The notes beneath the pieces were generated by a model that saw nothing but the letters and a program-made list of their open reading frames with translations, had not been told where the DNA came from and made no database searches. From Salvelinus alpinus (lineage: Eukaryota > Chordata > Actinopteri > Salmoniformes > Salmonidae): a stretch of 64,000 nucleotides of DNA. The DNA is taken from NCBI RefSeq assembly GCF_045679555.1, contig NC_092087.1, positions 89,480,920 through 89,544,919 on the forward strand. Direction: 5' to 3'. The position numbers were made by a program, and so were the translations under genes. Below, piece by piece: positions 29,946 through 64,000 of the stretch (position 1 is the first letter of the stretch; each line of letters opens with the position of its first letter).

Positions 29946-31068
29946 TGCATTTCACCTGGGGCAAGAGAGCGCTTTAAAAGGAACACAGAGATCGCAGGAC
30001 CAAGAGGCATTTGAAAACAAAACATAGCAAATATGTCATCATTTCCAACTGTGTGGAACAAGTAGAATTATATTTTCCTTTAAGATGATATGTAACACTT
30101 ACGTAGCCGCACTCTTGGGCCGGGTGTTACTGGCGGGGGTGGTGCTGGCTGCGGCGGGCCTGGCCACAGCAGCTACCCCCTCCTGGTCTCTGCGCTGAAT
30201 GTAGTCAATCAAGGCGGCCATCGCACTCCCAGGATAATGGGGTGTCTGCGTCCTCAAGCTCCTGACATATCTGTGTGAGACACAGCAGAAGGAATGTTTC
30301 AGATGTAAAATGTTGCATAAAACACACTGAGATGAACATAGAAAACACAAAAGACGTACGCCCATTACTTTATCCTGTCTGCACCCGTAGCCTTATACAG
30401 GTCCTGCAGCGTGTTCCACTTGTACTTCCCGATGCCAACAAGGGCCTTGCCCTCCTGGCCTGAAATCAGAACGGGAACCAATTAACTGTCAGAGCAAAAG
30501 AGTTACATCTTACATACAATGAGGAGAATTAAACAAACTCACCTGGCTGCGAGGACAGGACTTTAGCTTCCTCCTGAGCCCGGTTGAATCTGACCATCTC
30601 AGCGAAGGCCGGATAGGCGCACGAGTAGCGAGTCAAGGCGTCCTTTTTGGCCCATCAGGGGATGCTGGGAAACGCTGCCCTCTCGCTCCCTCTACTTCTG
30701 ATGCACCGTTACCAGGTACACCATGTAGCCCACGTCGTTCTCCATCATCCACTTGAAGGTCTGACCTCGGTACTTGCCGAACTGAACCATGCACCGGTTC
30801 AGGATGACCATCTCTGCACCGGGGTCACCTCCCTCGGAGACGACACGGGCTCGAGCCTCTGCCTCCACTTCCTCCCACTTCTTAGTCCTCACAGGAGGGC
30901 CCGGAGCACCAGAAGCAGGGGGGGCCGTCAGCGGCCACTTTAACTGCCTGGGGTGTGGCCCTGAGGTCCAACTCCTGTGAGGGCGTGAACCGGAACCTAA
31001 GATTTTCCATCTTATTGGCAAGAAAAAAACTATTATCATGACTGATGAGTGCAGTGACAAGTGACAGC
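29945..31068 (-). pseudogene. Copy D: 5' fragment of the DUF6729-like gene family
   Basis: Reads on the minus strand from about 31011: MENLRFRFTPSQEL, then KKWEEVEAEARARVVSEGGD and QFGKYRGQTFKWMMENDVGY, the N-terminal signature shared with copy A. Further exon-like pieces follow: FAEMVRFNRAQEEAKVLSSQ; QEGKALVGIGKYKW..LQDLY; and YVRSLRTQTPHYPGSAMAAL, IDYIQRRDQEGVA. A frameshift lies between QKERE and the next piece, as in copy C. The fragment ends at the pyrimidine tract, and no later exons follow. It is very similar to 54060-55114, and the similarity extends upstream to about 31440. Confidence 0.75.
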
Positions 31069-31685
31069 ATAACCGTATTAGATACATATAAAGGAACTTA
31101 CGTTTGCTTGATAGGTCTGCTAGGAGGAGGACAGCAGTGGGGGGTTTGGGGGCTATGGGTAGGGTGATTATTATTTCATATGCAGTTAAATCCAGTTTAT
31201 ATAGAAAGACACGTTTGCCCCAATGACCATCAGGTTGTCACATATCATACAATGCATTCAACTATCCTCTTCAAACACATGCCATCAAAAATCGAAAGAA
31301 AAGACAATTAAATAGTATAGAATTCCAACTTTGAGTTGATATAGATGTTAGCTAAGGTTTTACAGGATTGTCAGTGGTCAAATAAACTTTGAATTTTGTA
31401 CGCCTTCAGTAGCTAGTGATATACGAACGTTGTTAATGACAAGCGGATTGCAAAAATGTAAAATTTTGAATTGATTAGGCCCACTACTGTTCTAAAAGGG
31501 GTGGGAGAGGTGAGCACAGAAACAAAGATCGTTTTAAAATATCAAAATGAGAAAAGAAATCAGCAGATATATCTGCTCGTCTCACATGTTAGGCTAGTGT
31601 AATAAATATCATTTATTATAACATGTGTTAGGCTAGCCAGGACTGTATGGATGAATGTGAAGCTCTACGCTAATAAGCAACTCAC

Positions 31686-41383: not shown

Positions 41384-41483
41384 NNNNNNNNNNNNNNNNN
41401 NNNNNNNNNNNNNNNNNNNNNNNNNNNNNNNNNNNNNNNNNNNNNNNNNNNNNNNNNNNNNNNNNNNNNNNNNNNNNNNNNNN
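41384..41483. other. Assembly gap (100 N)
   Basis: Exactly 100 N. Unlike the first gap, I see no repeated flanks. Confidence 1.
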
Positions 41484-42646: not shown

Positions 42647-43201
42647 CTTGACTAATAGATCTGGGCAAACTGAGACTCTCCCTGAGACTCTCCCAAAATT
42701 CAACAAGTAAAGGTGTGCAGCAACCAATCAGAGATTAGTGGGCGTCACAAGGGGCACTGGGGGATGGGCGGGTTTGACTCCCTGCTGTCACCTGTAGTAT
42801 CTGCTGGCCATCTCAAATCTCTGAGTAGAACTTGACTGTATTATTGTTTTTGTGTTACAAATCTGTAAACAGTGTGTTTATTGACTAAGAAAATGAAAAA
42901 TTATGACCGTTTTACTTGTCTTTTTATTTGTTTTAACTTTAAAGAGTGTATGACAATAAATCAAAATGAATTTAAGGGAGAAAAAGTGCTTGCATTCAAT
43001 TATTATTTATTTCACAGGGAATGTCACATGTGAAAGAACCCAGCATAATGTCCCCTACACCTACTGTACAAGTTAAGATGATTTGAAATGAGCTAAATGT
43101 ACAAGAGATTAACAATGAATGTCTTAAAAAATAAATAAACAACAAAGAACATATGTACAAAAACGACTTTACAATTGACACACCAGTCAGTCAGTCAGAG
43201 T

Positions 43202-46200
43202 TTACTGGCCACCAGAGGTAGCGGCACAGAATCTCACAGAACCATACATACTGTGTCCAAACTCAGAAGTTTTCGGCTTGCCACATTTCGAGCACTTATA
43301 GCCTTCGTATGGCTTGTGCGCTCTGACTTTAATGCCAGACTCCAGCCTCGTCCTCCTTCTCCATTCAGTGGTCCTGGAGACCTTGGGTCCACCAGCAGGA
43401 GGAGGGGGAAGAGGAGTGGAGGTCGAGGGCAAGTCTTGGGAGACTGGCGTTATAGAGAGGGAGGTGGTAGGCAGACTGGGTTGCGGTAGAGGTGGCAGTG
43501 GCTGACAAGTGTCTGCTCTGCCACGCTGTGTAGCCTGCCCCGTTCTGTCCTCTGGCAGCTGGTAGGTGCTGCTGGTTGATGGGGCTGGCAGCGGTGAAGT
43601 GCTCCAGACTGCAGCGTGGAAGGGGCCTGACTCCTCCCTCTCTGCAGTCATGCTGTCCCGGTTCTGGTGCAGGGCCACTCTCTCCATAGAGGATATCCAT
43701 TTGTTGTACCTGTGTGAAAAACGTGAAATATGTTTACTGTTATCAGGAACACTGTCAACCAGTGAACTACACATAAAATATACCAAAATATTTTTTTAAA
43801 CGTACCACTGTGTCAAGGTCAGCTTGTTGACCTGGAACAGTTGCAGCCTTGTGTGAGTATTGAGGTTTGGGCTGCCCAGCACCATGGTCCTGATTCTCCT
43901 GTAGTCCCCCAGGATAGCAGCCCACCTGTTGACCCGGTTACCAAGAACCGTCTTGCCAGCAGGGTGTTTGTGGCACAGCTCCACAAAAATGGCCTCCACT
44001 GTCCTGCTGGTGTTGGGCCACTGAGCAGGTCCAGAGCCTTGGCCAGGCAGGGAGCTGAAGGTAGATTAAGTTAACAAAAGGAAACATCACGTTAATGAGA
44101 AATACACTCATGTCTTTATGTGTGTAGTGAGTTTAGAACAATGTGCAGTACATACCGCTTCATACTCTCTTCCCCCGTCACGGTTGAGCTCTTTGAATTG
44201 TTGAAGCTCCCCTGCAGGACTCGGTCCCGGAACCTCTCGGGGTAGGAGACTGCCGCCTTGTCTCTCTCCGGAAGATTTCCCCAGAGAGCCATGATCTCCT
44301 CTATTTGCCTATTAGAGATCCATGGCCCCTCCAGCAGCCTCAGCAGACTCTTGGCCAGGAGGACCACGTGCTGGTATCCACTAACCCCATCAGGTCCTAT
44401 GTACTCCTGGAAATTAGAAGAGTTGTGGGGAAGGGTTGGATTAATAGTCAGATTAATAGTTATGAATGGAAAGAAACTTGAGTGAGCTGTTTAGGATGTG
44501 GATAGGCACTTACGTCATCCTCCGGGTCCTGACTGGCAGCTGGTGCAGTGTCCATCTCCTCCATAGTGTCATCAGGGGGTGTGACGACAGGTACCTGGGA
44601 TGGGTTGGGTTGAGTGGGCGGTGGAGTGGCCTTCCTGAGTGGAGGGACTAGTAAGAGATGGTCATCGAGGTCGGGCAAGGACATGGTGGGGTCATCCTCC
44701 TCCTCAAGCTCTCCCAGGTCATCCTCCTCTCCCTCTCCTCCCTCAAATAGATCAGGTGTCCCGTCTGGGACATCCGGGTCCTTACCGAGGTTGGACTCCA
44801 ACCTCTGGTCACCATGGGTCTGGGAGAAGAGATACTCGACCCCAATAAGTTCCCCTTAAACAGAGAGACAAAAAAAAAAAGAGTTGTACATAAACAGAAC
44901 TGCACATGTTTTAGTGTGTGTGTATAATTGTATAATTTAGAAATACATACCAGTGTACTTTGCAGGCCTTGTGTGATCCTTCACAAGACTGCAGCCCAGG
45001 AGCTTCTGGCTCAGCTCATTGATGGCGTGCTGGGCTACACCATCATAGCAGTGCAGGGTCTGCTTCTGTCCCCCCCCCTCCGCTGCAGCTTCGGCACGGT
45101 CCTCATTCCACCGAACTAACCCTTCAAGGAGGTAGGCCTGAAAGTGCTCGGCAGACGCACTTGTTCCTATAAATGACGACAACAACAACAAGAAATAAGA
45201 ACTCCTCACATGCACACAGTTGTTAACACACAACATGACGTAACAACATGATCCAGTTTTACATTTAACATACCAGGAATGAAGCGGTTGAGGTGGAGGT
45301 GGAAAGACTCCAGGGAGGTGGACTCACGGGCGCAACGCAACACAGGCAGGATGACCCCTCCCTTGGTCACGTCCTTGCCCTTGTTGGTGTAGATGCTGAC
45401 ACCAGGGGGGTCCTGAATACAGACCAGGTGTCGTCTCTGGGTCTGCCAGATGGCCTGCATTCGGTCACGGTCCAGGAGCCGGACGCCCAGGGTGTCTGTG
45501 GCATCGATGAAGGTCTCCAGGAGCTCCCCGATGAGACGCTCGGTCTCCTCCGCCCCGCGCGTGCGGCGACGACAGTGCCGAGCCATCTCCTTCAGGCTGA
45601 TCCTCTTCAACACCTGTGCGTCGCTGAGCCCCGTGATGTGGCTCCCCTTGAGCTCACCTCGCTTGGCCTCCAGCAGGCGCTCCACATCATCTGCACACCA
45701 CACCAACATGCAGGAGGAGAGCCGCCGCAAAAAGAGAGCATACAGAGGATGGCTCTCTGTTGTCACTCCCCGAGCAAAGCGACGGATGAGGTGCCCCACA
45801 TCCAGCCGGACGATGAGTTCATCCCACTGGCTGAACATGGCTGCCGTCTTCCCCTTTCCCATCAGGGCGCAGCAGTCCCGGTTGACGTAGAGCAGCTTGG
45901 GAGGTGCCACTCCAGCTCTACTGTAGCGCTGCTGGAGGCCAGCTGCCATGTGGAGCAGGCCCTCTCCTTCGCTGTCAGTGAGGACCGTAATGAGCACCTG
46001 GCCGTACTCATTGCCCACATTTGTGGCCCACGCTGCTGTCCCGTGTGCTGTCCCAGCTAGTTTCTTGGTCACCTGAGGGGAGTCAAACAAACACAGACAG
46101 ACAAGACAGACAAACACACAGTCATGTCAGTGAGTGGACACAAAGTTTCACAATACATTTATTAAGTCATAAAATAAGTCATAATAAATGATTATTCATT

Positions 46201-48867
46201 TGATTGTCTCTAACTAACTAGTATTATTTCTGGTCAAAACATCTTAAATCACCTTCTTGGTTGAATCCATCTTCAGGATGGACCCAAAGATGGAGGTGAC
46301 TCTGGCCTTGAAGTCCTCCAGCTGGAACAGAACGTCGTAGCCGTGGACAGTCAGCAGCCACTGGGCTGAGGGCACATCCAAAAAGGGAGGAGGAGGTGTT
46401 ACCCTCAGTGGTGCGGCACCTGGGACTACAAAGTGGTCACAGACGGACAGGTAGTACAGGGTCCGACTCATCCAGGTCAGGCTGTGCTGCTCCCTCAGCT
46501 GGTTGTACAGCCTGGTCACACTGTTCCCCAGTGTCCTCTCTCTCATCAGCCTGACCACCTTCAGGTCACAGGACAGCCTAATGCACAGAGACAATTGGGG
46601 GAAAGGAGGAGAAGAGGGTGAGGAGTGTGTGGAGGGAAACAGTTTGATAAGGGAAGGAGGGGCTTGGGAAAGGGTGACTTTGAAACACTTTGCTTTGTTT
46701 GGGCAGTTCCTGATAAGAGATCACATTCAGATCAAAGAGCTCATTAACATTTTAATGGGGCTTTGAAAAATCAAAACCTTAGTGTTGACAAGAACTTACT
46801 GACCGCCTCTTTTTCTCACCATGATGCTTTTTTCTGTTTTTCCTCAAAGTGAACAAGAGCTGTGATTTTCAGAGGTGTGAATTACTAACCTGTAAGTCAA
46901 GATGGCTGGGAAAATGGAGCGATGACTTGCGTCCAGCTGGTCCAAGATATCCAGCGACCATCCTGCTAGCTTCTTCTTACAGAGGCGGCACTCCAGGTAC
47001 TCTGTCCCCATATAATACCAGCCGTCCATGTCAAGCACCCTCCGGACTGTCTTGTACACCCCACAGCCTGTGAGCTTTTGACGCTTGCACCGTGGCTGGG
47101 TGCACACAAACTTAAAGGCCCACAGGCGGTAGGGCATCCAGAGGCAGAATGGCCGGAGGAAGTAGGCGGAGGGAGAAGCTGGAGGCTGATGGCTGATGTT
47201 AGGAGGCAGAGGAGGGAAGTACCACAGCTCAAGCTGGCTTTTCAGGACACATTTGAGCTGCTTGTCCCTGATGAAAATGGCCCGACTGACCCACTCTTGC
47301 TGCTCCTTTGGGAGGGTCTGCTTCCATCCCTCAGGGAGAAGCACCTGCAACAGAGCAGAGAATCAATACATTTCTTTTGCCCACACAACCAAAAGTGAAA
47401 TGAAATAGCCAAGTCATAGTTGAGGTGAGACGTTTACCTGAGCGTCAGCAGCAGGCTGTAGTGGTCCAGCTGTTGGCTGGGAGGCTGACTGGAGCTGAGG
47501 AGGGGCAGTAGGAGCTAGCACAGCAGGGGGTGCGGTGGGGGTGGGAGCAGTAGGAACTGCTACAGGAGCACAGGAGTTAGTCTCACAAAATATTTCAGAG
47601 AAATAAGTGAAATAATTAAATTAGAATAGAGCTTCAGCTTCAAAACATGTTAACAGCCTGTTGACAGCCTTGGTTAAGTTTTGATCAGTGTTATCAGTGG
47701 TAGAGGTTAGGAATCTAGGTTAAACACAATCTACATTTAAAAGCTACAAATGACAGATGTATAGTGGGTAGACATCTACAAGCAAGGAATAGGCAAAGCA
47801 AAGTGATGCAGACTGAAATACAGGTTGGAATGGTGACAAGACAAGCTTCAGTAAACAATTCATTCCACAAAAAGATGAGGAAGGATTTTTCTATGGCAAG
47901 CAAAATGGATGCAAAAATGAGAAATTCTACAATGATTTCTAAGCCCAGCTAGGAGGTGTTTTAACAATTTTACCACTTACCTTACCACTTTAAAGTGTAT
48001 CCTGTTAATGCTAACAACAACAGATAGTTATTAGGGGAAAGGTCATTTCATATGTATATTCTTCTCAACAGAAATAAACAATAAAGTGCCATAACATAGA
48101 GTACCTTGGTCAAAACCCATGCAGATAGACAGCAACTCCTGATCCGATGGCTCGGCAGCTAAGAAACACAGACAAACATAATGACACAGTTATATTGTCA
48201 ATTGCTACACTGTTTGATTTACTGTTTGATTGACTTAGATGACTACAGAATATATATTTACATGGATTAAGAGGCGCTACAGCTGTTGCTGTGTCCTCCT
48301 GGTCAGGTCGGGGGGGCAAGGTCTCGTCCCGTACCCTGCGTTCCTCCACTGCCTTCTGGACCTCAGGAAACAGGTTGGTATACCTGTCCGGATGGTTGGG
48401 AAAATGTTATAAATTGTATTGTGATTCTGACTGATTTCATGTTTTTGTAATTTTATAAGAAAATACAACATTTAAGGAAAAGAGTACCAGTCAAACCGGT
48501 CCTTGTTGGCCATTTCAGAAGACGTGTCTGTGTCCCCCATCTCCCTCTCTTGCTGGTGAGAAGCCAAGACCATGACGGCATAGCCGACATCGTGGCTTAG
48601 CAGCCACTTGAAGGTTTGACCACGGTATTTGCCGAACTGGATGGCACTCTCACTGTCCACCAGTCGGCTATCATCCGGGTCACCCCCTCTGGCTACCACA
48701 CAAGCCTTTGCCTTTGCCTTCACTTGTCGTGGCTTCAGCACCCGGACTACACCTGTACACTCTTCCTCCTGGATGGTCCTGGCAACCCTGGCAGCCTCTT
48801 CAGATGCCCTCAGGGTGAGGGCACCAGAGGGCTCCAAGCGGAAAGCAGGGGTGTGAACATAATCCAT
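43202..48867 (-). CDS. Copy A: intact DUF6729-like protein with RNase H/DDE-transposase-like core, 12 exons, 1273 aa
   Basis: Exons (minus strand): 48867-48488, 48383-48262, 48158-48105, 47559-47438, 47344-46890, 46577-46253, 46072-45274, 45166-44951, 44854-44514, 44406-44156, 44054-43806, 43709-43202. All borders are AG/GT and every phase fits, giving 3822 nt with no stop. Domains: an N-terminal FGKYRGQTFKWLLSHDVGYA motif (about 90-115); a Pro/Ala-rich exon (186-226); a zinc-ribbon-like block (CTQPRC ... ECRLCKKK) with WYYMGTEYLECR, which I recall as DUF6729; a core with KMDSTKK (D482), YVNRDCC (D552), RLDVGHLIRR (D577) and STSLESFHLH (E741); an acidic stretch (about 850-938); a conserved GNRVNRWAAILGDYRRIR block; and a final CSKCGKPK ... 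GHSMYGSVRFC finger. The function is unknown. The acidic spacing resembles DDE/RNase H-fold transposases, so it may be an uncharacterised transposase or a tamed one. The start could instead be 48879. Terminal inverted repeats were not found. Confidence 0.85.
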
Positions 48868-48949
48868 TCTTCCTTTCATTAAGAGAGGTTATTCACACAC
48901 ATACACACACGTTGTTATTTGTTGACAGCAATACACAGTGGACCACATA

Positions 48950-49190
48950 GCTACCCTGCTTACAGTAGAGCCCATACAGCGTTAAATGTCAATTTCATTC
49001 TACATATAACGTTAGCTAGCTGGCCCATACAGCGTTAAATGTCCATTTCATTCTACATATAACGTTAGCCAGTTGGCCCATACAGCGTTAAATGTCAATT
49101 TCATTCTACATATAACGTTTGCTAACTGGCCCATACAGCGTTAAATGTACATTTCATTCTACATATAACGTTAGCTAGCTGGCAAGTGTG
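48950..49190. repeat. About 60-bp tandem repeat upstream of copy A
   Basis: Four copies of a unit with 'cccatacagcgttaaatgtc' 'aatttcattctacatataac' 'gttagctagctgg'. A second duplication lies at 49350-49575 ('aaatacacaactgtgttccg', 'gatgaaatatagctaacgtt', twice). This is the likely 5' flank or promoter region of copy A; no promoter motif could be defined. Confidence 0.8.
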
Positions 49191-49579
49191 CGTTGTAGTA
49201 CACTAAGTTAACACTGCACGTTAACTACATTGGCTAAATATATAAATATATAACGTTAACTAGTTAGCCAGCTAACTATCAATTATTACCGCCCTTTACT
49301 ACACATTATTAGCTAGCGACAGGACTCGTTTTCAAGAAAACCGACTGAAACTCACATTAGTTCACCTAAATACACAACTGTGTTCTGAAATCCGCCATGA
49401 AATATAGCTAACGTTGCCTTTACGACCACGACTGAAACTCACATTAATTCATCCAAATGTTTCCTGAAATACGTGATGACAACTAAATCAACGACTGAAA
49501 CTCACCTTAATTCACCGAAATACACAACTGTGTTCCGAAATCCGCGATGAAATATAGCTAACGTTACCTTTACAACTAT

Positions 49580-50980
49580 CTTTCTCACAAGTACTCGGAA
49601 TGATGGAGAACTAACTGCAAAGAACTTCTCCGTGGATTTTGCGGGAGGCGGGACATGAACGACAGACTCTCTTTTCGTTCTTTTGTCTCTCTCTCCTTTC
49701 TCGCTGTCTTTTCTCAAATTACATTTTTTTCAAATTGAAATTGCTTTATTGGCATGAAAAACATTGTGTCAATATTGCCAAAGCAACAATGTATACAATC
49801 TAAATGTTTGTATTCTGCAAAGTATTTTTATCAGTCCGCAGAATGGACCACGTATCATTGAACCATGATACCGTGAATTACCAATGATATACACTATTAG
49901 TTTCTGGGAAATACATCCTTGTTTCTATCGCTTCTAGCATATTTATTGTGACCCCATTCCTGAAAGCGCACCCTTCCAGGAACACATATGTTTGTTCCCC
50001 CTCAACGTAGACCCTTTATAACAATCACATATGTTTGGACTTTGTCTGGATTTAGGACTAGCAGAGGATACCTATAAACCATAAAAGCAAGGGGGTCACA
50101 GTTGAGAAAATTGGCTAAATAATTAAAAATAATCTAATCAACAATTACATAATATGCAATTAACTATTGACTTTTTCATTTGTAAATTATTATTATAATG
50201 CAAATGAAACCTGGAGTTGGGTTTATATAGCCATGGGGGGAATAAAAAAAGTTGTATATGTATTAGGTTGTGAAGACTCAACGCTGAACTAAATCAAAAT
50301 ATGTCTACAACTCACAAGTGTTATTAAAAATGTGTAAGAAATTGAAATACATAATATATGTACCTCATCTCAATATTCCCAAGAGACATATTCTGAACTT
50401 TTAAACAAAATTGTAAACTCGTTACACATACTTATGCTACTTTCACATAATACAATGTCAGTGTCAGCAACCTTCGATGCTGTGGGGAATGTGTTATATC
50501 TTGTACATGTTCCCCCCTATAGATATTCCTTAACATCCTAGATACTAGAACATTAGTAGTACATAACAGTGTAATAGCGTAGTACTACAGTACAGACCTG
50601 TCTTGACATCCTCGTTTGAAACATTAAAACTTCTTGTTTATTGTCAGAACGAGCCTTCTGGATATGTGTGGTACTGTATATAAAACATCAGTGACTCTTT
50701 GATTCACCAAAGGTTCTTGTTCTCTACAGTTTAACATAAAAAATATTTCCCTCCACTCTAAAAATATACTTTCGAATTATAAACATGTAAATAAAAAAGG
50801 AATACTAAAATAGCCAATGTATCGTCATGTCATATACTTTATAACCCGAGGGGGTCAAAATTGTTGTTCAAATGTTGCATATACATTTTTTAGTATCTAG
50901 ATATTGTGTTATGTTAGAATGTCTAATAAACAACTATTTTATACATGAATAATATTGTTTTGTCAAAAATATATAATAAT
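49580..50980. other. AT-rich spacer without recognised genes
   Basis: No coding sequence is seen. A repeat-like stretch 'aaattgaaattgctttattg' 'gcatgaaaaacattgtgtc' at 49733-49775 resembles a common fish repeat. The rest is AT-rich and unassigned. Confidence 0.5.
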
Positions 50981-50984
50981 AATA

Positions 50985-51483
50985 TTTTACCTGCACCTGT
51001 ATGCAGACGATACCGTTGAGTACTCTATCGCCCGCCCTGCTGATCATGCTCTATCTGAACTACATTATGCTTTCATTATTTTGCAGAAAACCTTTGACCT
51101 TAAATTATTATTGAATAAATGGAAAACTAAGTATGTTGTTTTCTAGAGTACACTAAAATTATTCTAATGATTGAAGTGTACGTCCCTAGTACGGTGGTGT
51201 ATCAGTAAATACGTTAAGTTGTCGTTTTAAAAAACATAATGATGAGTTAATTAAGATGCTGAATATAAAAAGGGGCTTCTTCTATAGAAATAGGTCAGGC
51301 CTCTTGCTTAATAATACAAAGCAGATAATTCAATCTATGTTCTTACTGGTCCTAGACTATTGCAAAATCATCTATATGAATGCAGATGCCACTTCATTAA
51401 AGCCTTTAGATGCATTTGACCACAGAGCACCTTGTTTTATTATGGGTACAGGTTCAGTACACATCCCTGCATTCTGTATCATA
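50985..51483 (+). mobile_element. LINE reverse transcriptase fragment
   Basis: The plus-strand frame LHLYADDTVEYSIARPADHA (YADD catalytic motif), then LQKTFDLKLLLNKWKTKYVV; a second frame has NIKRGFFYRNRSGLLLNNTK, FLLVLDYCKIIYMNAD and DAFDHRAPCFIMG. It is frameshifted and lacks both ends. Its right end abuts exactly the truncated last exon of copy C at 51484, so this insertion probably removed the 3' part of that copy. It is similar in style to the LINE at 32020-32920. Confidence 0.75.
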
Positions 51484-54400
51484 AAGTAGGCTGATGGCGC
51501 TGGGATGGATTCGGCAGAGCTGACTGCAAATGGCCTCCACCAAACGGCTGGTGCCCGGCCAATTTGCAGGGCCCGAGTTGAGTCCAAGAAGGCAACTGAA
51601 ACAGAGGAGATAAATAATTAGAGAATATTGAAAAATAATGATAGCCATCACCTAACCTTCATAAGCATTTAATGTAGAGGCAGGCAATATAATAGTAAGG
51701 TGGAGGACATGAACACTAACAACATACCGTTGGAGAGAGTCTTTTCCTGGGACAATGGACGACTTCCCCTTCGTTGCCTTGAACCACCCCTGAACGATCC
51801 TCTCCTGGTGTCGGGCAGGGTAGATCAAGCGCCAGCCACAGCGCCAACAGACCGTCTACCCTGCGGTCCGACAGCCCCTGACGGTTCCTCACCCCCACCA
51901 AGGCCCTGGCAAGCCTGCGGACATGCTGGTAGCCCGGCATTGCATCAGGGCCTTGCGTCTCCCCCTGAAGATAAAGACACATGGAAGAATCGATGAGGAC
52001 GATGTCAAACATTTAGGGGTAACACATAAGATTCTTCTACAAAGGAAATAGATGTTTTATATTGTGTAACTAAAAATCAACAGATGGAATTGGTTAAAAT
52101 GCAACATGTTTCAAGTTAAACTGTAATTAAAAAAAATAATTTTTAGTTAATGATTACTGTGAGTATTAATGGAGTTTAGGTCATGAAACTTTGTGTATGC
52201 TAATTTAGAAACCATGACCTAATCAGATAAGAGGAAATTGCCTAGGATCAGAGATCAGGGTCAGGCCCAGAAGATGGATAGCTAAACAAAGAGAGGACCG
52301 TGGACATTCCACAGGGGAAAGAAGGGGAGAGTCATTGGGGTCATAAAATGTATAACTAGGGAGGTGACGTCTACAAGGGAAGAGTATAAGACGTGTTGTG
52401 AGCTTTCTAAACGAATGCACTCAGCTGATGGCATCCTTGGTATTAGACACCCGAAAATTGTGTCTTGAGTTTGTCTCAATTCCTTATTTCAAAGAGGTTG
52501 CAATAGCATGTATTTTTTTAACAACACATAAGGTCAATTATAATTACCTCAATCAGAGGAGTGGTCAGGGTGAGGAGAACCGTGTCGATCAGGGGCCTCA
52601 GGAGAGCTTCCGTCTTCAGGGGCGGTGGGACTGGATGGCCCAGACCTGGAGGAGAGAGAGAGATATAAAGCATATGAATGACACGCTTTCATTTTACTTT
52701 ATTACTAACTAACAAAATCTTGTGAGCTTACTTGTATGTCAATATTGCTGGAAAGTGGCAGCGATGCCGAGCGTCCAGCTGACTGACAAGGTCCCGTGAC
52801 CTTCTTCTTACACCGACCGCATTCCAGGCACTCAGTGGCCACAAGAGGTCGATGTCCAAGACCCTCCGGATGGTCTTGTAGAGCCCAGCCTTGCAGTGTG
52901 TGCCCACTGTGTCCAATTTGGCATCGTGTTTAATATCTTAACAATATCTTAACAATGTGGAGTAATTACAGTTGATGAATTTACCTCAGCACTTTCTGAG
53001 GAGGGCCTTGGAGGCAGGAAGGACTGCCGGGGCAAATCCTCCTCTTCGCTCTGCCCCTGTGGGGCAGGAGCAGGGGCCGGGGCCAGGACCGGGGCAGGAA
53101 CAGGGGCTTGGTCAGTTGGAAGCAGAGGCTGAGGGAGCAATGGGGGGGTCCTGTAGGGCTACGGCTTTTGCAGTGACACAGAAATAAATAGGTTAAATTA
53201 ATGAATGAATAAATAAAATAAATGCATGCCGGTTTAACCTGACCATCTCAGCGAAGGCTGGATCGGCGCACGAGTAGCGAGGCAAGGCATCCTTGTTTGC
53301 CCATCAGGGGATGCTGGGAAACGCTGCGCTCTCGCTCCCTCTCCTACATATTACAAATGTAGATAACAGTGATTAAGTTAATAGCACATTCCAACATGCC
53401 CAGATGAATATCAATCAGTGATAGGATGTAACAAAAACATTTATGAGTGTTGGTCAAGTTTGAGTGTAAAACTGAAATGAAATTAGTGATTAAAATGGAA
53501 AAGAGAAAGTCATGATTAAGTGACATACAGGATGACAGCTACATGCAGGATGACAGCTACATGCAGGATGACAGCTACACGCAGGATGACAGCTACACGC
53601 AGGATGACAGCTACATGCAGGATGACAGCTACATGCAGGATGACAGCTACATGCAGGATGACAGCTACATGCAGGATGACAGCTACATGCAGGATGACAG
53701 CTACACGCAGGATGACAGCTACATGCAGGATGACAGCTACATGCAGGATGACAGCTACACGCAGGATGACAGCTACATGCAGGATGACTGCTACATGCAA
53801 ATGTCCTTTGTCAATTAATAGTGACGTAAAAACATACGTGTGTCTATGTCAGCAGCTGCTTTGACCAGCTCTGCGTCCGATAGATCTGTTGGTGGCAGTG
53901 CTGGTCGAGGGAAAGACACCCCTATATCACGTGGAGAGAGAAAGGATTGTGAGCTACACAGCTTATCCAAAAAGTTCATATTATCTTACATGTGTAACTA
54001 CACACTGACCTTGAACTGCAGGCTGAGAAGCAATGAGCTTCTTCATCTTCGACTGCAGTTCACCTGGGTGAGAGAGCGCCTTGACAGGAACGCAGAGATC
54101 GCAGGACCAAGAGGCCTTTGAAAACAAAACATAGCAAATATGTCATCATTTCCAACTGTGTGGAACAAGTAGAATTATATTTTCCTTTAAGATGATATGT
54201 AATACTTACATAGCCGCACTCTTGGGCCGGGTGTTACTGGCGGGGGTGGTGCTGGCTGAGGCGGGCCGGGCCACAGCAGCTACCCCCTCCTGGTCTCTGC
54301 GCTGAATGTAGTCAATCAAGGCGGCCATCGCACGCCCAGGATAACGAGGTGTCTGCGTCCTCAAGCTCCTGACATATCTGTGAGACACAGCAGAGGGAAC

Positions 54401-55114
54401 ATTTCAGATGTAAAATGTTGCATAAAACACACTGAGATTAACATAGAAAACACAAAAGACGTACGCCCATTACTTTATCCTGTCCGCACCCGGAGCCTCA
54501 TACAGGTCCTGCAGCGTGTCCCACTTGTACTTCCCGATGCCAACAAGGGCCTTGCCCTCCTGGCCTGAAATCAGCACGGGAACCAATTAACTGTCAGAGT
54601 AAAAGAGTTACATCTTACATACAATGAGGAGAATTAAACAAACTCACCTGGCTGGGAGGACAGGACTTTAGCTTCCTCGTGCGCCCGGTTGAACCTGACC
54701 ATCTCAGCGAAGGCCGGATAGGCGCACGAGTAGCGAGTCAAGGCGTCCTTGTTGGCCCATCAGGGGATGCTGGGAAACGCTGCGCTCTCACTCCCTCTCC
54801 TTCTGATGCACTGTTACCACATACACCATGTAGCCCACGTCGTTCTCCATCATCCACTTGAATGTCTGACCCCGGTACTTGCCGAACTGAACCGTGCACC
54901 GGCTCAGGACGACCATCTCTGCACCGGGGTCACCTCCCTCGGAGACGACGCGGGCTCGAGCCTCTGCCTCCACTTCCTCCCACTTCTTAGTCCTCACAGG
55001 AGGGCCCGGAGCACCCGAGGCAGGGGGGCCGTCAGCAGCCACTCTTACTGCCTGGGGTGTGGCCTTGACGACCAACTCCTGTGAGGGCGTGGAACGGAAC
55101 CTTGGATTTTCCAT
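51484..55114 (-). pseudogene. Copy C: internally deleted DUF6729-like gene
   Basis: Starts at 55114 (MENPRFRSTPSQELVVKATP), has QFGKYRGQTFKWMMENDVGY, then exon-like pieces at 54790-54650 (frameshifted), 54565-54480 (QEGKALVGIGKYKWDTLQDL) and 54380-54209 (YVRSLRTQTPRYPGRAMAAL). A Pro-rich piece follows (53140-52975), then a zinc-ribbon remnant (52900-52728: YKTIRRVLDID ... LDARHRCHFPAILTYK), 51995-51725 (GYQHVRRLARALVGVRNRQG) and 51600-51484 (GPANWPGTSRLVEAICSQLC). The exons for the catalytic core (copy A exons 6-9) are absent, and the end is cut by the LINE piece at 50985-51483. The array at 53528-53800 lies inside it. A stray duplicate of the 54700 exon sits at 53225-53340. The N-terminal exon set is richer than in copy A. 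Confidence 0.75.
53528..53800. repeat. 18-bp minisatellite, about 15 units
   Basis: The unit 'caggatgacagctacatg' (or ...cacg) repeats every 18 bp without length change, so all six frames stay open. The apparent repeat protein (MQDDSY)n on the plus strand and (HVAVIL)n on the minus strand are most likely by-products. It lies in an intron of the dead copy C. Confidence 0.95.
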
Positions 55115-55504
55115 CTTAGGAGGCAAGAAAAAAAACTATTATCATGACTGATGAGTGCAGTGACAAGTCACAGCATAACCGTATTAGATACATATAAAGG
55201 AACTTACGTTTGCTTGATATGTCTGCTAGGAGGAGGACAGCAGTGGGGGGTTATGGGTAGGGTGATTATTATTTCCTATGCAGTTAAATTCAGTTTACAT
55301 AGAAAGACACGTTTGCCCCCAATGACCATCAGGCTGTCCCATATCATACAATTCATTCAACTACATACACTTCAAACGCATGCCATCAAAAAACAAAAGA
55401 AAATTGACAATTAAATAGTATAGAATTCCAACTTTGAGTTGATATAGAAGTTAGCTAAGGTTTTACAGGATTGTCAGTGGTCAAATAAACTTTGTGAGTT
55501 TTGT

Positions 55505-55930
55505 ACACCTACAGTAGCTAGCGATAGACGAACGTTGTTAAATTACACATTTTGGGTAGCCCCTGTAGTCAAACAAGTCGGTTGGCTAGAGGTGTTATTG
55601 TCATATTTCATCACATTTAGTATTCATTCTTGCAAATTAAGCACAATTACCTCATATACTCACCGAGTGGCATCATGGCTGACAGAAAAATTATTTATAG
55701 CCAATGCTAACTTGCCTGTGCAGCAGTAAGCTACAGTAGCTAGCGATCTACGAACGTTGTTAAATTACACAATTTGGGTAGCCCCTGTAGTCAAACAAGT
55801 CAGTTGACTAGACGTGTTATTGTCATATTTCATCACATTTATAGTCGTCGATGTTAAATTCGTTGCAAATTAAGCAAAATTACCTCAGATACTCACCGAG
55901 TAGCATCGATGGATGACAGCAAAATATTTT
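55505..55930. repeat. Tandem duplication of about 224 bp upstream of copy C
   Basis: 'tagctagcgatagacgaacg' through 'tgtcatatttcatcacattt' at about 55512-55620 recurs at about 55736-55845, followed in both by 'ctcaccgagt' '.gcatcatggctgaca' or similar. The first unit is homologous to the region upstream of copy D (31400-31440), so this may be the 5' flank of the family, duplicated here. Confidence 0.75.
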
Positions 55931-57228
55931 GTGATGAAGTGACGTTAGGAAAATTTCAGAGGAAGATGATTGGCTTAACTTTTGGAACAAGCTAGGCTCT
56001 TCATTGGTGGATTTTTGCTTTCTTTCTCCGATTTGGAACAAACTGAAGCATCTGATTGGAGGAGAGGACTAATGGAACAATATGGGTATTTGGAACATTT
56101 GGAACAGATAAAAATTTGCAAATTGCCCAAGGATATTGCCCATTCTTCTCTGTCGAAGGAGGAGGGGGAAATGGGGGGTTTTGCTGGGTGAGAGGAGGAG
56201 TTGGCAGGGACCTGTCAACAATGCATATTAAGTAGCCATGTGCTTTGAGCACCAGATCTAAACAGTGATGACAGACACAGAAGCCCAGTCTAGGAGTTTT
56301 AATGATGAACCAGAGTATACATAGGGAAACAGGATACAATGGAAGATAATTATTGCAATGTAAATCCAATAAACATTAAATAAATGTCAGCAATCTATAC
56401 ACACAAAATAACACACCATAGTTCACGAGTTGGAACATCGGCTAACCCTCGAGGAGACGGAGCATCGGCTGCCCCTCGACGAGACGGATCATCGCTGTGT
56501 ATTGATAGGGACTAGGGTGGAATGAGATTTGACGGAACCTCAGGACTCCTAAGAAGACAACATAGGGCCCTAGAAGAGAGGAGGGTACATGGGGTCCAGG
56601 GTCAACCATACTTTATAAGTTTGCATCCCATATGGCACCCCATTCCCGACACTACTTTTGACCAGACCCCATAGTAGCCTACTTTCTAGGTATCCCCAAG
56701 ATGAGTCAGTCAAGGATGTATACCAAATCACACCCTATTCCTTATATAGTGCTCTACTTTGGACCCTATGGGCAAAACGAGTACACTAAATAGAGAATAG
56801 GGTGCCATTTTGGATGCACATAAGTTGTAATTTGGGTGGACTACACAGGAAAACAAGCTGTAATTTGGGTGGACTACACAGGAAAACAAGCTGTAATTTG
56901 GGTGGACTACACAGGAAAACAAGATGTTATTTGGGTGGACTACACCGGGAAACAAGCGTTAATTTGATTCGTATTGCTGAAGCGATATACCCCAGCATAC
57001 TTTGCTACTCTCTGATGCAGAGGCAGAGGCCTCAGAAAGTTGCAACCTCTTTCTCTTACAAGAACAAGAGTAAAAGAGGGGAGGGAGACAAAAAGGGGAG
57101 GGAGACAAAAAGGGGAGGGAGAGAGAAAAAAATGACAGAAAAGGGGGCGGTAGAGAAAAAACGAGAGAAAGAAAAAGGGGGAGGGCGAAAGAGAAAAAGA
57201 GGGAGAGAGCGAAAGGGGGAGAGAAGGT
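55930..57228. other. Intergenic sequence with short tandem repeats and a GA-rich tract
   Basis: No gene is seen. It contains a piece of the 'ccctattccttatatagtgc' MITE family (56640-56822). A tandem repeat of about 33 bp follows (56826-56963, 'taatttgggtggactacaca' 'ggaaaacaagctg', about four units). A purine-rich block lies at 57060-57225. At 57228 the strong similarity to the 3' flank of copy A (42715 onwards) begins. Confidence 0.6.
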
Positions 57229-58780
57229 GTGCAGCAATCAATCAGAGATAAGTGGGCGTCACTGGGGGGGTTTGACTCCCTGCTGTCACCTGTAGTATCT
57301 GCTGGTCATCTCAAATCTCTGAGTAGAACTTGACTGTATTATTGTTTTTTTGTGTTACAACTCTGTAAACAGTGTGTTTATTGACTAAGAAAATGATGAC
57401 AGATTTACTTGTCTTTTTATTTGTTGAACTTTAAAGAGTGTATGACAATAAATCTAAATGAATTTCAAAGGAGAAAAAGTGCTTGCATTCAATTATTATT
57501 TATTTCACAGGGAATGTCACATGTGAAACAACCCAGCATAATGTCCCCTACACCTACTGTACAAGTTAAGATGATTTGAAATGAGCTAAATGTACAAGAG
57601 ATTAACAATGAATGTCTTAAAAAATAAATAAACAACAAAGAACATATGTACAAAAACTACTTTACAATTGACACAACAATCAGTCAGTCAGTCAGAGTTT
57701 ACTGGCCTTTGCTAGCACCATGCTGGGCCCTCATGAGTGCCAGCCACTCAGGGGGTGTGACGACAGGTACCTGGGATGGGTTGGGTTGAGTGGGCGGTGG
57801 AGCGGCCTTCCTGAGTGGAGGGACTGGTGGGAGATGGTCATCGAGGTCGGGCAAGGACATGGTGGGGTCATCCTCCTCCTCAAGCTCTCTCAGGTCATCC
57901 TCCTCTCCCTCTCCTCCCTCAAATAGATCAGGTGTCCCGTCTGGGACATCCGGGTCCTTACCGAGGTTGGACTCCAACCTCTGGTCACCATGGGTCTGGG
58001 AGAAGAGATACTCGACCCCAATGAGTTCCCCTTCAACAAAGAGACAACAAAAAAAGAGAGTTGTACATAAACAGAACTGCACATGTTTTAGTGTGTGTGT
58101 ATAATTGTATAATTTAGAAATACATACCAGTGTACTTTGCAGGCCTTGTGTGATCCTTCACAAGGCTGCGGCCCAGGAGCTTCTGGCTCAGCTCATTGAT
58201 GGCGTGCTGGGCTACACCATCATAGCAGTGCAGGGTCTGCTTCTGCCCCCCCCCCCTCCGCTGCAGCTTCGGCACGGTCCTCATTCCACCGAACCAACCC
58301 TTCAAGGAGGTAGGCCTGAAAGTGCTCGGCAGACGCACTTGTTCCTATAAATGACGACAACAACAACAACAAGAAATAAGAACTCCTCACATGCACACAG
58401 TTGTTAACACACAACATGACGTAACAACATGATCCAGTTTTACATTTAACATACCAGGAATGAAGCGGTTGAGGTGGAGGTGGAAAGACTCCAGGGAGGT
58501 GGACTCACGGGCGCAACGCAACACAGGCAGGATGACCCCTCCCTTGGTCACGTCCTTGCCCTTGTTGGTGTAGATGCTGACACCAGGGGGGTCCTGAATA
58601 CAGACCAGGTGTCGTCTCTGGGTCTGCCAGATGGCCTGCATTCGGTCACGGTCCAGGAGCCGGACGCCCAGGGTGTCTGTGGCATCAATGAAGGACTCCA
58701 GGAGCTCCCCGATGAGACGCTCGGTCTCCTCCGCCCCGCGCGTGCGGCGACGACAGTGCCGAGCCATCTCCTTCAGGTTG

Positions 58781-61700
58781 GAAAATATGCAGTATTTTGT
58801 TTTTTTACGTGTTATTTCTTACATCGGTACCCCGGGTAATCTTAGGTTTCATTACATACAGTCTGGAGGAACTACTGAATATACGATTAACGTCAACTCA
58901 TCATCGTTCCTACCAGGAATATGACTTTCCCGAAACGGATCCAGTGTTTTGCCTTCCACACAATACAATGGATCTGATCCCAGCCGGCGACCATGTGCGA
59001 CGCCGAAAAAGGGGAAAACGTGGCGGTCTCGTGGTCAGGCTTCGGAGACGGGCACATCGCGCTCCACTCCCTAGCATACTACTCGCCAATGTCCAGTCTC
59101 TTGACAATAAGGTTGATGAAATCCGAGCACGGGTAGCATTCCAGAGAGACATCAGGGATTGCAACGTGCTCTGCTTCACGGAAACATGGCTAACTCAAGG
59201 GACGCTAACGGAGTCGGTGCAGCCAGCTGGTTTCTTCATGCATCGCGCCGACAGAAACAAACATCTTTCCGGTAAGAAGAGGGGTGGGGGGGTATGCCTT
59301 ATGATTAACGAGAAGTGGTGTGATCATCATAACAACACACAAGAACTCAAGTCGTTCTGTTCACCTGATCTAGAACTCCTCACAATCAAATGTCGACCGC
59401 ATTATCTACCAAGGGAATTCTCGTCAATCATAATCACAGCCGTATACATTCCCCCCCAAGCAGACACATCGATGGCCCTGAACGAACTTTATCTGACTCT
59501 TTGTAAACTGGAAACCACACACCCTGAGGCTGCATTCATCGTAGCTGGGGATTTTAACAAGGCTAATCTAAAAACAAAACTCCCTAAATTCTATCAGCAT
59601 ATCGATTGTGCTACCAGGGCTGGAAAAACACTAGACCATTGTTATACTAATTTCCGCGACGCTTATAAGGCCCTCCCCCGCCCCCCTTTCGGAAAAGCTG
59701 ACCACGACTCCATTTTGTTGATTCCAGCCTACAAACAAAAACTCAAACAACAAGCTCCCGCGCTCAGGTCTGTTCAACGCTGGTCCGACCAATCTGAATC
59801 CACGCTTCAAGACTGCTTCGATCACGCGGATTGGAATATGTTCCGCATCGCGTCCAACAACAATATTGACGAATATGCTGATTCGGTGAGCGAGTTCATT
59901 AGGAAGTGCATTGACGATGTCGTACCCACAGCAACGATAAAAACATTCCCAAACCAGAAACCGTGGATTGACGGCAGCATTCGCGTGAAACTGAAAGCGC
60001 GAACCACTGCTTTTAACCAGGGCAAGGTGACCGGAAGCATGACCGAATACAAACAGTGTAGCTATTCTCTCCGCAAGGCAATCAAACAGGCTAAGTCTCA
60101 GTACAGAGACAAAATCGAGTCGAAATTCAACAGCTCAGACACAAGAGGTATGTGGCAGGGTCTACAGTCAATCACGGATTACAAAAAGAAAACCAGCCCC
60201 GTCGAGGACCAGGATGTCTTGCTCCCAGACAGGCTAAACAACTTTTTTGCCCGCTTTGAGGACAATACAGTGCCACTGACACGGCCCCCTACCAAAACCT
60301 GCGGGCTCTCCTTCACTGCAGCCGAGGTGAGTAAAACATTTAAACGTGTTAACCCTCGCAAGGCTGCAGGCCCAGACGGCATTCCCAGCCGCGTCCTCAG
60401 AGCATGCGCAGACCAGCTGGCTGGTGTGTTTACGGACATATTCAATCAATCCTTATCCCAGTCTGCTGTTCCCACATGCTTCAAGAGGGCCACCATTGTT
60501 CCTGTTCCCAAGAAAGCTAAGGTAACTGAGCTAAACGACTACCGCCCCGTAGCACTCACTTCCGTCATCATGAAGTGCTTTGAGAGACTAGTCAAGGACC
60601 ATATCACCTCCACCCTACCGGACACCCTAGACCCACTCCAATTTGCTTACCGACCCAATAGGTCCACAGACGACGCAATCGCAACCACACTGCACACTGC
60701 CCTAACCCATCTGGACAAGAGGAATACCCATGTGAGAATGCTGTTCATCGATTACAGCTCAGCATTTAACACCATAGTACCCTCCAAACTCGTCATCAAG
60801 CTCGAGACCCTGGGTCTCGACCCCGCCCTGTGCAACTGGGTCCTGGACTTCCTGACGGGCCGCCCCCAGGTGGTGAGGGTAGGTAACAACATCTCCACCC
60901 CGCTGATCCTCAACACTGGGGCCCCACAAGGGTGCGTTCTGAGCCCTCTCCTGTACTCCCTGTTCACCCACGACTGCGTGGCCATGCACGCCTCCAACTC
61001 AATCATCAAGTTTGCGGATGACACTACAGTGGTAGGCTTGATCACCAACAACGACGAGACGGCCTACAGGGAGGAGGTGAGGGCCCTCGGAGTGTGGTGT
61101 CAGGAAAATAACCTCATACTCAACGTCAACAAAACAAAGGAGATGATTGTGGACTTCAGGAAACAGCAGAGGGAGCACCCCCCTATCCACATCGACGGGT
61201 CAGTAGTGGAGAAGGTGGAAAGTTTTAAGTTCCTCGGTGTACACATCACGGACAAACTGAATTGGTCCACCCACACAGACAGCGTTGTGAAGAAGGCGCA
61301 GCAGCGCCTCTTCAACCTCAGGAGGCTGAAGAAATTCGGCTTGTCACCAAAAGCACTCACAAACTTCTACAGATGCACAATCGAGAGCATCCTGTCGGGC
61401 TGTATCACCGCCTGGTACGGCAACTGCTCCGCCCACAACCGTAAGGCTCTCCAGAGGGTAGTGAGGTCTGCAGAACGCATCACCAGGGGCAAACTACCTG
61501 CCCTCCAGGACACCTACACCACCCGATGTCACAGGAAGGCCATAAAGATCATCAAGGACAACAACCACCCAAGCCACTGCCTGTTCACCCCGCTATCATC
61601 CAGAAGGCGAGGTCAGTACAGGTGCATCAAAGCAGGGACCGAGAGACTGAAAAACAGCTTCTATCTCAAGGCCATCAGACTGTTAAACAGCCACCACTAA

Positions 61701-62234
61701 CATTTAGCGGCCGCTGCCAACATACTGACTCAACTCCAGCCACTTTAAAAATGGGAATTGATGGAAATTATGTAAAAATGTACCACTAGCCACTTTAAGC
61801 AATGCCACTTAATACAATGTTTACATACCCTACATTACCCATCTCATATGTATATATACTGTACTCTATATCATCTACTGCATCTTGCCATCTTTATGCA
61901 ATACATGTACCACTAGCCACTTTAAACTATGCCACTTTATGTTTACATACCCTACAGTACTCATCTCATACGTATATACCGTACTCTATACCATCTACTG
62001 CATCTGCCATGCCGTTCTGTACCACCACTCATTCATATATCTTTATGTACATATTCTTTATCCCTTTACACTTGTGTGTGTGTGTGTAAGGTAGTAGTGT
62101 GGAATTGTTAGGTTAGATTACTGTTGGTTATTACTGCATTGTCGGAACTAGAAGCACAAGCATTTCGCTACACTCGCATTAACATCTGCTAACCATGTGT
62201 ATGTGACTAATAAAATTTGATTTGATTTGATTTG
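58781..62234 (+). mobile_element. Nearly full-length LINE inserted in copy B exon
   Basis: Same family as 23323-26823, opposite strand. It starts at gaaaatatgcagtattttg, so it lacks only the first few tens of bases (5' UTR and about a dozen codons). It ends with (TTTGAT)n. The target duplication AGGTTG lies at 58775-58780 and 62235-62240. The empty site is seen in copy A (about 45596), where the exon is continuous. Confidence 0.95.
58797..61700 (+). CDS. LINE endonuclease/reverse transcriptase, open ORF of 967 aa (5' truncated)
   Basis: Reads from MFFYVLFLTSVPRVILGF to LLNSHH without interruption. It has the endonuclease motifs (CFTETWL, VAGDFN, KADHDS) and the reverse transcriptase motifs (LFIDYSSAFNTI, GAPQGCVLSPLLYSLF, IIKFADDTTVVG). 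Compared with 23857-26796 I count about five differences: Ser-Leu for Ser-Arg near the N-terminus, His for Pro at AGDHVRRR, an added Leu-Lys in YKQKLKQQ, Lys for Gln in IESKFN, and Glu for Ala in SPVEDQ. The native start (MAASLRVPW...) is missing because of 5' truncation, so this copy is probably not mobile on its own. Confidence 0.93.
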   Translation: MFFYVLFLTSVPRVILGFITYSLEELLNIRLTSTHHRSYQEYDFPETDPVFCLPHNTMDLIPAGDHVRRRKRGKRGGLVVRLRRRAHRAPLPSILLANVQSLDNKVDEIRARVAFQRDIRDCNVLCFTETWLTQGTLTESVQPAGFFMHRADRNKHLSGKKRGGGVCLMINEKWCDHHNNTQELKSFCSPDLELLTIKCRPHYLPREFSSIIITAVYIPPQADTSMALNELYLTLCKLETTHPEAAFIVAGDFNKANLKTKLPKFYQHIDCATRAGKTLDHCYTNFRDAYKALPRPPFGKADHDSILLIPAYKQKLKQQAPALRSVQRWSDQSESTLQDCFDHADWNMFRIASNNNIDEYADSVSEFIRKCIDDVVPTATIKTFPNQKPWIDGSIRVKLKARTTAFNQGKVTGSMTEYKQCSYSLRKAIKQAKSQYRDKIESKFNSSDTRGMWQGLQSITDYKKKTSPVEDQDVLLPDRLNNFFARFEDNTVPLTRPPTKTCGLSFTAAEVSKTFKRVNPRKAAGPDGIPSRVLRACADQLAGVFTDIFNQSLSQSAVPTCFKRATIVPVPKKAKVTELNDYRPVALTSVIMKCFERLVKDHITSTLPDTLDPLQFAYRPNRSTDDAIATTLHTALTHLDKRNTHVRMLFIDYSSAFNTIVPSKLVIKLETLGLDPALCNWVLDFLTGRPQVVRVGNNISTPLILNTGAPQGCVLSPLLYSLFTHDCVAMHASNSIIKFADDTTVVGLITNNDETAYREEVRALGVWCQENNLILNVNKTKEMIVDFRKQQREHPPIHIDGSVVEKVESFKFLGVHITDKLNWSTHTDSVVKKAQQRLFNLRRLKKFGLSPKALTNFYRCTIESILSGCITAWYGNCSAHNRKALQRVVRSAERITRGKLPALQDTYTTRCHRKAIKIIKDNNHPSHCLFTPLSSRRRGQYRCIKAGTERLKNSFYLKAIRLLNSHH

Positions 62235-64000
62235 AGGTTGATCCTCTTCAACACCTGTGCGTCGCTGAGCCCGGTGATGTGGCTCCCCTTGAGCTCACCT
62301 CGCTTGGCCTCCAGCAGGCGCTCCACATCATCTGCACACCACACCAACATGCAGGAGGAGAGCCGCTGCAAAAAGAGAGCATACAGAGGATGGCTCTCTG
62401 TTGTCACTCCCCGAGCAAAGCGACGGATGAGGTGCCCCACATCCAGCCGGACGATGAGTTCATCCCACTGGCTGAACATGGCTGCCGTCTTCCCCTTTCT
62501 CATCAGGGCGCAGCAGTCCCGGTTGACGTAGAGCAGCTTGGGAGGTGCCACTCCAGCTCTACTGTAGCGCTGCTGGAGGCCAGCTGCCATGTCGAGCAGG
62601 CCCTCTCCTTCGCTGTCAGTGAGGACCGTCATGAGCACCTGGCCGTACTCATTGCCCACATTTGTGGCCCACGCTGCTGTCCCGTGTGCTGCCCCAGCTA
62701 GTTTCTTGGTCACCTGAGGGGAGTCAAACAAACACAGACAGACAAGACAGACAAACACACAGTCATGTCAGTGAGTGGACACAAAGTTACACAATACATT
62801 TATGAAGTCATAAAATAAGTCATAATAAATTATTATTCATTTGATTGTCTCACTAACTAGTATTATTTCTGGTCAAAACATCTTAAATCACCTTCTTGGT
62901 TGAATCCATCTTCAGGATGGACCCAAAGATGGAGGTGACTCTGGCCTTGAAGTCCTCCAGCTGGAACAGAACGTCGTAGCCGTGGACAGTCAGCAGCCAC
63001 TGGGCTGAGGGCACCTCCAAAAAGGGAGGAGGAGGTGTTACCCTCAGTGGTGCGGCACCTGGGACTACAAAGTGGTCACAGACGGACAGGTAGTACAGGG
63101 TCCGACTCATCCAGGTCAGGCTGTGCTGCTCCCTCAGCTGGTTGTACAGCCTGGTCGCACTGTTCCCCAGTGTCCTCTCTCTCATCAGCCTGACCACCTT
63201 CAGGTCACAGGACAGCCTAATACACAGAAACAATTGGGGGGGGGGGGGGGGGGAGAAGAGGGTGAGTAGTGTGTGGAGGGGGGGATCTAGAAACACTTTG
63301 ATAAGGGAAGGAGGGGCTTGGGAAAGGGTGACTTTGAAACACTTTGCTTTGTTTGGGCAGTTCCTGATAAGAGATCAAAGGTCAGAAATTCAGATCAAAG
63401 AGCTAATTAACATTTTAATGGGGCAAAGAGCTAATTAACATTTCAATGGGGCTTTGAAAAATCAAAACCTCAGTGTTGACAAGAACCTACTGACCGCCTC
63501 TTTTTCTCACTATGGTGCTTTTTTCTGTTTTTCCTCAAAGTGAACAAGAGCTTTGATTTTCAGAGGTGTGAATTACTAACCTGTAAGTCAAGATGGCTGG
63601 GAAAATGGAGCGATGACTTGCGTCCAGCTGGTCCAAGATATCCAGCGACCATCCTGCTAGCTTCTTCTTACAGAGGCGGCACTCCAGGTACTCTGTCCCC
63701 ATATAATACCAGCCGTCCATGTCAAGCACCCTCCGGACTGTCTTGTACACCCCACAGCCTGTGAGCTTTTGACGCTTGCACCGTGGCTGGGTGCACACAA
63801 ACTTAAAGGCCCACAGGCGGTAGGGCATCCAGAGGCAGAATGGCCGGAGGAAGTAGGCGGAGGGAGAAGCTGGAGGCTGATGGCTGATGTTAGGAGGCAG
63901 AGGAGGGAAGTACCACAGCTCAAGCTGGCTTTTCAGGACACATTTGAGCTGCTTGTTCCTGATGAAAATGGCCCGACTGACCCACTCTTGCTGCTCCTTT

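Follow-up and report, generated by a model that had tools for sequence, protein, structure and literature searches.

What kind of gene is the intron-rich, transposase-like gene, here called copy A, that lies on the minus strand at positions 43202 to 48867 of a 64,000-nucleotide stretch of the Salvelinus alpinus genome (contig NC_092087.1, written C2:89480920-89544919 and hereafter called the window), and is its product still likely to move DNA? An initial annotation of the window, made from its letters alone, had proposed an intact gene of unknown function that might be either an uncharacterised intron-bearing transposon or a tamed host gene. We take copy A to be a transposase gene of the Dada superfamily of DNA transposons, a placement that rests on published motif spacings and not on sequence comparison with a Dada protein, and we think it probable that the gene is a recently disabled member of that superfamily within a tandem array.

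Copy A has the motif spacings of a Dada transposase

Re-splicing copy A reproduced the frame of the initial annotation, in which 12 exons running from 48867 to 43202 join into 1273 codons without a stop. The introns number 11 rather than the 12 counted earlier, and every one of them begins with GT, ends with AG and keeps a consistent phase. A crude splice finder favoured a chain of 16 pieces and 1210 residues, which we dropped in favour of the 12-exon model because a paralogue at C2:107.6 Mb, about 55% identical in protein, has GT/AG borders that match those of copy A at six introns (introns 5, 6, 7, 8, 10 and 11).

A Pfam search with the copy A protein returned one domain, DUF6729 (PF20499), matched over its full length at residues 233–461 with an E-value of 1.4e-94. 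A match of this strength to the coding sequence is not due to chance, and it bears out the domain name that the initial annotation had given. Pfam states no function for DUF6729, a search of PDB sequences with copy A gave no relative (best E-value 0.8), and a literature search for the word DUF6729 returned no paper containing it, so that no link between DUF6729 and Dada was met in this way.

Dada was described by Kojima and Jurka in 2013 (PMC3706591) and surveyed in fish by Kojima in 2022 (PMC8869645), and many fish are known to carry such elements. In zebrafish Dada-U6_DR, the features given are 11 exons, 1402 residues, a CCCC finger (389/394/429/432), the residues D567, D635 and E811 with a DxxH motif after the second Asp, and a CCHC finger (1359/1362/1372/1381) (PMC3706591). 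Copy A, with its 12 exons and 1273 residues, repeats this order. Its CCCC finger is spaced 5/33/3 as against 5/35/3 in Dada-U6_DR; the distance from the last Cys of that finger to the first Asp is 134 as against 135; the first and second Asp positions are 68 residues apart in both (482 to 550 in copy A, an interval that aligns without a gap to a type-2 paralogue); the second Asp position and the Glu are 191 residues apart (550 to E741) as against 176; the DxxH motif recurs as D577-V-G-H580; and the CCHC finger is spaced 3/10/9 in both. The earlier proposal of a zinc finger ahead of a DDE-type core and a Cys/His finger behind it therefore agrees with published Dada transposases. By this agreement in spacing, DUF6729 is most likely the CCCC-finger region of these transposases.

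Two features that had been held to argue against a transposon, the introns and the absence of inverted ends, are both normal in Dada: introns are reported in all Dada except the Perkinsus ones, and terminal inverted repeats were not found (PMC3706591). Nor is the element of an uncharacterised kind, given the description of 2013 and the fish survey of 2022. Salmon is placed under Dada-U6 in the former (PMC3706591), as are Salmoniformes in the latter, where Salmonidae (one species) receive a single mark in a table (PMC8869645). Our first guess, the KDZ transposons (Kyakuja, Dileera and Zisupton; PMC12730594), was abandoned because the motif spacings taken from the Dada paper matched.

An RNase H-like core, also proposed in the initial annotation, is presumed for copy A from the Dada family, in which HHpred is reported to have detected a weak resemblance to Mu transposase and to the integrases of retroviruses (PMC3706591). 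An AlphaFold model of exons 6 and 7, made from a single sequence with intron 6 read through and no relatives, had a mean predicted local distance difference test score (pLDDT) of 37.4, and its fold was uninformative. A peptide-pattern search for relatives in viral contigs and prokaryote genomes gave none, and neither did a tblastn search in phages.

That copy A belongs instead to an ordinary family of host genes with no relation to transposons is hardly credible. The tandem array, the many introns and the few genomic places would suit such a family, but the reading is already contradicted by the match of copy A to Dada in its fingers, its DxxH motif and its spacings, that of the CCHC finger being exact, and DUF6729 occurs at no fewer than about 17 places, mostly as short or stop-containing matches. 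Copy A does depart from Dada in three respects: its second Asp is Asn, no adjoining small RNA gene or target duplication was found, and it sits in a tandem array. The advance is a modest one, namely a further Dada member, of which the new part is the link between DUF6729 and Dada together with a frame-intact copy bearing D550N.

Related copies elsewhere in the genome

The genome searched comprises 2.37 Gb. The Dada family in it is a small one. Exon 7 of copy A found 22 matches genome-wide and the corresponding type-2 query found 12, and DUF6729 gave at least 37 matches, which group into at least about 17 places, and none in 14 control genomes. The DUF6729 matches are mostly short or carry stops; among those listed, the ones free of stops over DUF6729 positions 1–148 or more were the four copies of the array. 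We examined seven of the places (the array, C3, C31, C30:9.68 Mb, C2:107.6 Mb, C782 and C5:68.5 Mb; the other 10 are listed as partial matches), and copy A is the only complete unbroken copy among these seven, some of which give a partial view: the C31 sequence is cut before exons 1–5, C782 is a 2.8-kb contig, the C2:107.6 Mb sequence has an assembly gap, and the C5 matches reach no farther than exon 8.

The C3 and C31 copies have stops or breaks, and the C30 copies are truncated and contain stops. The near-complete type-2 gene at C2:107.6 Mb (locus L027) is interrupted by an assembly gap before exon 4 and has an apparent frameshift in exon 8, near positions 6250–6430 of that locus; its DUF6729 match was listed with two stops, its exon 5 alone being open. 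At C5:68.5 Mb lies a type-3 copy with stops and a frameshift, which is about 42% identical across exons 5–8. In this third type (locus L043, C5:68509500-68516500) exons 5–7 align at positions 5439–3540 without introns 5 and 6, which stand in the same places in types 1 and 2, a difference that points to the gain or loss of introns within the family.

The array copies carry asparagine at the probable second catalytic position

The initial annotation had drawn a DDE-like triad from D482, D552 or D577, and E741, all of which are found in the spliced protein. D482 and E741 fit the Dada pattern. The second catalytic residue is better placed at position 550 than at D552 because the published spacing between the two Asp residues is 68, and D577 is part of the DxxH motif. 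Position 550, which follows D482 by 68 residues, is Asn in copy A (N550). In a DNA alignment, each of the four array copies (A–D) has N550 and G579; among five other aligned type-1 copies, D550 is present in four (C3, C31, C30b and C30c) and W579 in all five (these four and C30a). Of the type-2 copies, those at C2:107.6 Mb and C782 carry both D550 and W579; at C30:9.68 Mb, a type-2-like copy carries D550 and has Leu at position 579. Because position 550, catalytic by spacing, is Asn, copy A is probably dead; to judge from its residues, it has most likely lost the ability to move DNA.

The array consists of a tandem unit present in four copies across the window and a further 28 kb or so, each with a type-1 Dada gene and a decayed type-2 Dada gene. 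Exons 10–12 and the end of exon 9 are missing from B, C and D alike, and C and D additionally lack the part of exon 7 that bears E741. The decayed relatives that the initial annotation had seen near copy A correspond to copy B (57.2–65.8 kb), split by a long interspersed nuclear element (LINE), and to fragments of a distant type.

Judging by the published family, the zinc fingers of a working Dada transposase would bind the element ends and the small-RNA-gene target, and a DDE site in the RNase H-like core would cut and join DNA. In copy A the full frame and all splice sites have been kept, and the change of the second catalytic Asp to Asn, together with that of Trp to Gly just before the His of DxxH, would have cost it the movement of DNA. 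Because copy A stands in a four-fold tandem duplication of which the other three copies are broken, it is most likely a recently silenced element, or relic of an array, with an intact frame, and a recently disabled Dada transposase is what we consider it probably to be.

Observations that weigh against a recently disabled transposase

Observations of three kinds weigh against this reading, the first of which concern the active site. Two copies outside the array, C30a and the type-3 copy of C5:68.5 Mb, likewise have N550; the latter has Trp at 579 and a frameshift between D482 and position 550 that makes the spacing there approximate. D552 is unchanged in every copy compared, and in C30b and C30c, both decayed, Ala stands in place of D577 of the DxxH motif. 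If D552 were the true catalytic residue, copy A would keep its triad and could be a still competent transposase that tolerates N550. The constancy of D552 and the occurrence of N550 at three separate places (the array, C30a and C5) speak for such competence, which we nevertheless regard as very unlikely: the published spacing points to 550, copies are few, every other copy examined is broken, truncated or interrupted by the assembly, and a target site was not found. In the array and in C30a, moreover, the codon change is GTC-GAC to GTC-AAC, and because this change sits in a CpG, as a transition, D550N can recur easily in decaying copies; the C5 copy, with the context GTG-AAC, has no CpG there and falls outside that explanation.

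The second kind concerns insertion. Dada normally inserts into small RNA genes (PMC3706591). U6, U1, transfer RNA (tRNA) and 5S genes were sought at 40–58 kb of the window with E-values up to 5, and none was found; no small RNA target gene reached the gathering score in 10 sources, 6 further locus sources and locus L011; no tRNA was found in the window, and no piece of U6 stood out above chance. No target duplication was found at the ends of copy A, and the subterminal 9-mers of Dada-U6 were not found at the limits of homology, which may not be the true ends. Insertion by the usual route of Dada is thus without support, and tandem duplication or decay could have removed a small-RNA target. Taken as element ends, the homology limits near 49596 (A against C3) and beyond 41.5 kb gave no inverted ends. 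The 3′ limit was rejected as a clean element end, another stretch resembling the C-terminal finger apparently lying there, to judge by eye.

Downstream of the gene, a conserved stretch at 41484–42265 of the window recurs in the flanks of the C3, C31 and C30 copies, and a run of N at 41384–41483 interrupts the window. Farther downstream in C31 and C3 we noted, by eye, an apparent second sequence like the C-terminal finger, which is perhaps the tail of another family copy.

The third kind concerns the reading frame, and bears on whether copy A is a Dada-derived host gene that lost catalysis and was retained to bind DNA or to serve the host in another way. Numbers of nonsynonymous (N) and synonymous (S) changes, and the ratio of their rates (w), were obtained from DNA alignments that left out the fourth type-1 copy of C30 (near 83.5 kb in the joined stretch) and all copies of types 2 and 3, which are too divergent to be aligned as DNA. 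Since its split from C3, copy A has N 44 and S 32 (w 0.44, P 7e-4), and copy A is complete and unbroken, both of which favour a host role. However, w below 1 need not mean such a role because nearly the same values are found in the broken C3 copy (N 37, S 23, w 0.51, P 0.015) and in the truncated copy B alone (N 14, S 11, w 0.40, P 0.03). The branch common to the four array copies, which bears D550N, has N 21 and S 10 over about 514 codons (w 0.68, P 0.3), copy A alone has N 4 and S 4 (w 0.31, P 0.1), and the stem of C and D has N 16 and S 7 (w 0.71, P 0.46); the substitutions give no sign of protection after the active-site change. First-pass counts (w 0.33 for A and 0.72 for C3), which had the look of a protected gene, reflected noisy edges of protein alignments and were superseded by these DNA-based counts.

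Divergence from copy A in exons and introns is 0.058 and 0.066 for C3, nearly equal and thus against a host role, 0.067 and 0.087 for C31, 0.018 and 0.034 for B, 0.018 and 0.013 for C, and 0.017 and 0.012 for D. Insertions and deletions relative to A number 13 in exons and 23 in introns for C3, and 21 and 20 for C31, with more exon than intron sequence compared. In B, C and D there are 1, 1 and 0 in exons (about 2400–2750 nt) as against 13, 9 and 8 in introns (about 1530 nt), a depletion that may point to protection of the frame until recently, although more simple sequence in the introns may explain part of the contrast. In a simulation of 114 neutral substitutions a mean of 3.75 stops arose, and 2% of 4000 runs stayed free of stops. 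That stops are absent and exonic insertions and deletions are few suggests a frame under protection during much of the period after A and C3 separated. Such protection is also expected of a transposon lineage, and a host role is therefore open but unsupported.

A precedent for taming exists in dDada, a domesticated Dada-U6 of Cyprinoidei (carps and minnows) in which catalytic Asp residues are mutated and the motif reads DxxQ (PMC8869645). Copy A resembles it in having a full-length frame, an altered catalytic Asp and an alteration within the DxxH region, and differs in keeping the His (DVGH rather than DxxQ). Of the tamed host gene raised by the initial annotation, then, the precedent stands, and no clear positive evidence attaches to copy A; we judge that reading rather unlikely. 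It is doubtful, too, that copy A represents a second, independent taming of Dada outside carps, as a catalytically dead DNA-binding protein that retained its zinc fingers and perhaps binds or guards small-RNA genes.

Features of the window

The coordinates of copy A and its surroundings are collected in Table 1. Distant-type fragments lie at 30.6–30.9, 51.5–52.9 and 54.8–55.1 kb, and the segments 29931–31436 and 54039–55541 are 93.5% alike. The LINE within copy B has a very similar counterpart at 23857–26919, the open reading frames (ORFs) of the pair being long and open (1020 aa at 23857–26919 and 994 aa at 58716–61700), and UnaL2 LINE 3′ elements lie at 13741 and 28192. Transposase fragments at 38499–39811, matching Pfam DDE_Tnp_1_7, are presumably piggyBac-like. 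At 2619–3736 are exons of a gene that may be ZFYVE27-like, with a weak partial FYVE match (E-value 0.006, below Pfam's cut-off). A homeologous flank, sought genome-wide with a 51-aa exon query from this gene, gave only the window's own locus, and with a DNA query gave matches dominated by a short repeat.

Table 1 Features of copy A and of the surrounding array, in window coordinates
Feature	Position	Strand	Remarks
Exon 1	48488..48867	-	aa 1-126; start ATG 48867 (alternative, second in-frame ATG 48879)
Exon 2	48262..48383	-	spliced frame
Exon 3	48105..48158	-	spliced frame
Exon 4	47438..47559	-	spliced frame
Exon 5	46890..47344	-	bulk of DUF6729 and N-terminal CCCC finger C307, C312, C345, C348
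Exon 6	46253..46577	-	remainder of DUF6729 and predicted first catalytic Asp D482 (KMDSTKK)
Exon 7	45274..46072	-	predicted transposase core, including N550 (most relatives have D), D552, D577xxH580 (W579G) and E741
Exon 8	44951..45166	-	spliced frame
Exon 9	44514..44854	-	linker, acidic and proline-rich
Exon 10	44156..44406	-	spliced frame
Exon 11	43806..44054	-	spliced frame
Exon 12	43202..43709	-	C-terminal CCHC finger C1244, C1247, H1257, C1266; stop codon
Tandem unit	42710..56955	-	four copies, differing by deletions and insertions
Type-2 Dada pseudogene	51484..55114	-	pieces of exons 1, 5, 10 and 11; core missing; exon-1 piece typed by position
Copy B	57224..64000 (to ~65.8 kb in window numbering)	-	lacks exons 10-12 and the end of exon 9; LINE interrupts exon 7
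LINE ORF (reverse transcriptase)	58716..61700	+	within exon 7 of copy B
N-terminal fragment, distant type	30632..30892	-	29931-31436 93.5% like 54039-55541

Implications

Genes annotated with DUF6729 can be re-read as copies of Dada. Copy A, for its part, offers a test case for the loss of a catalytic residue in a transposase whose frame is intact, in which taming can be set against decay that is only recent.

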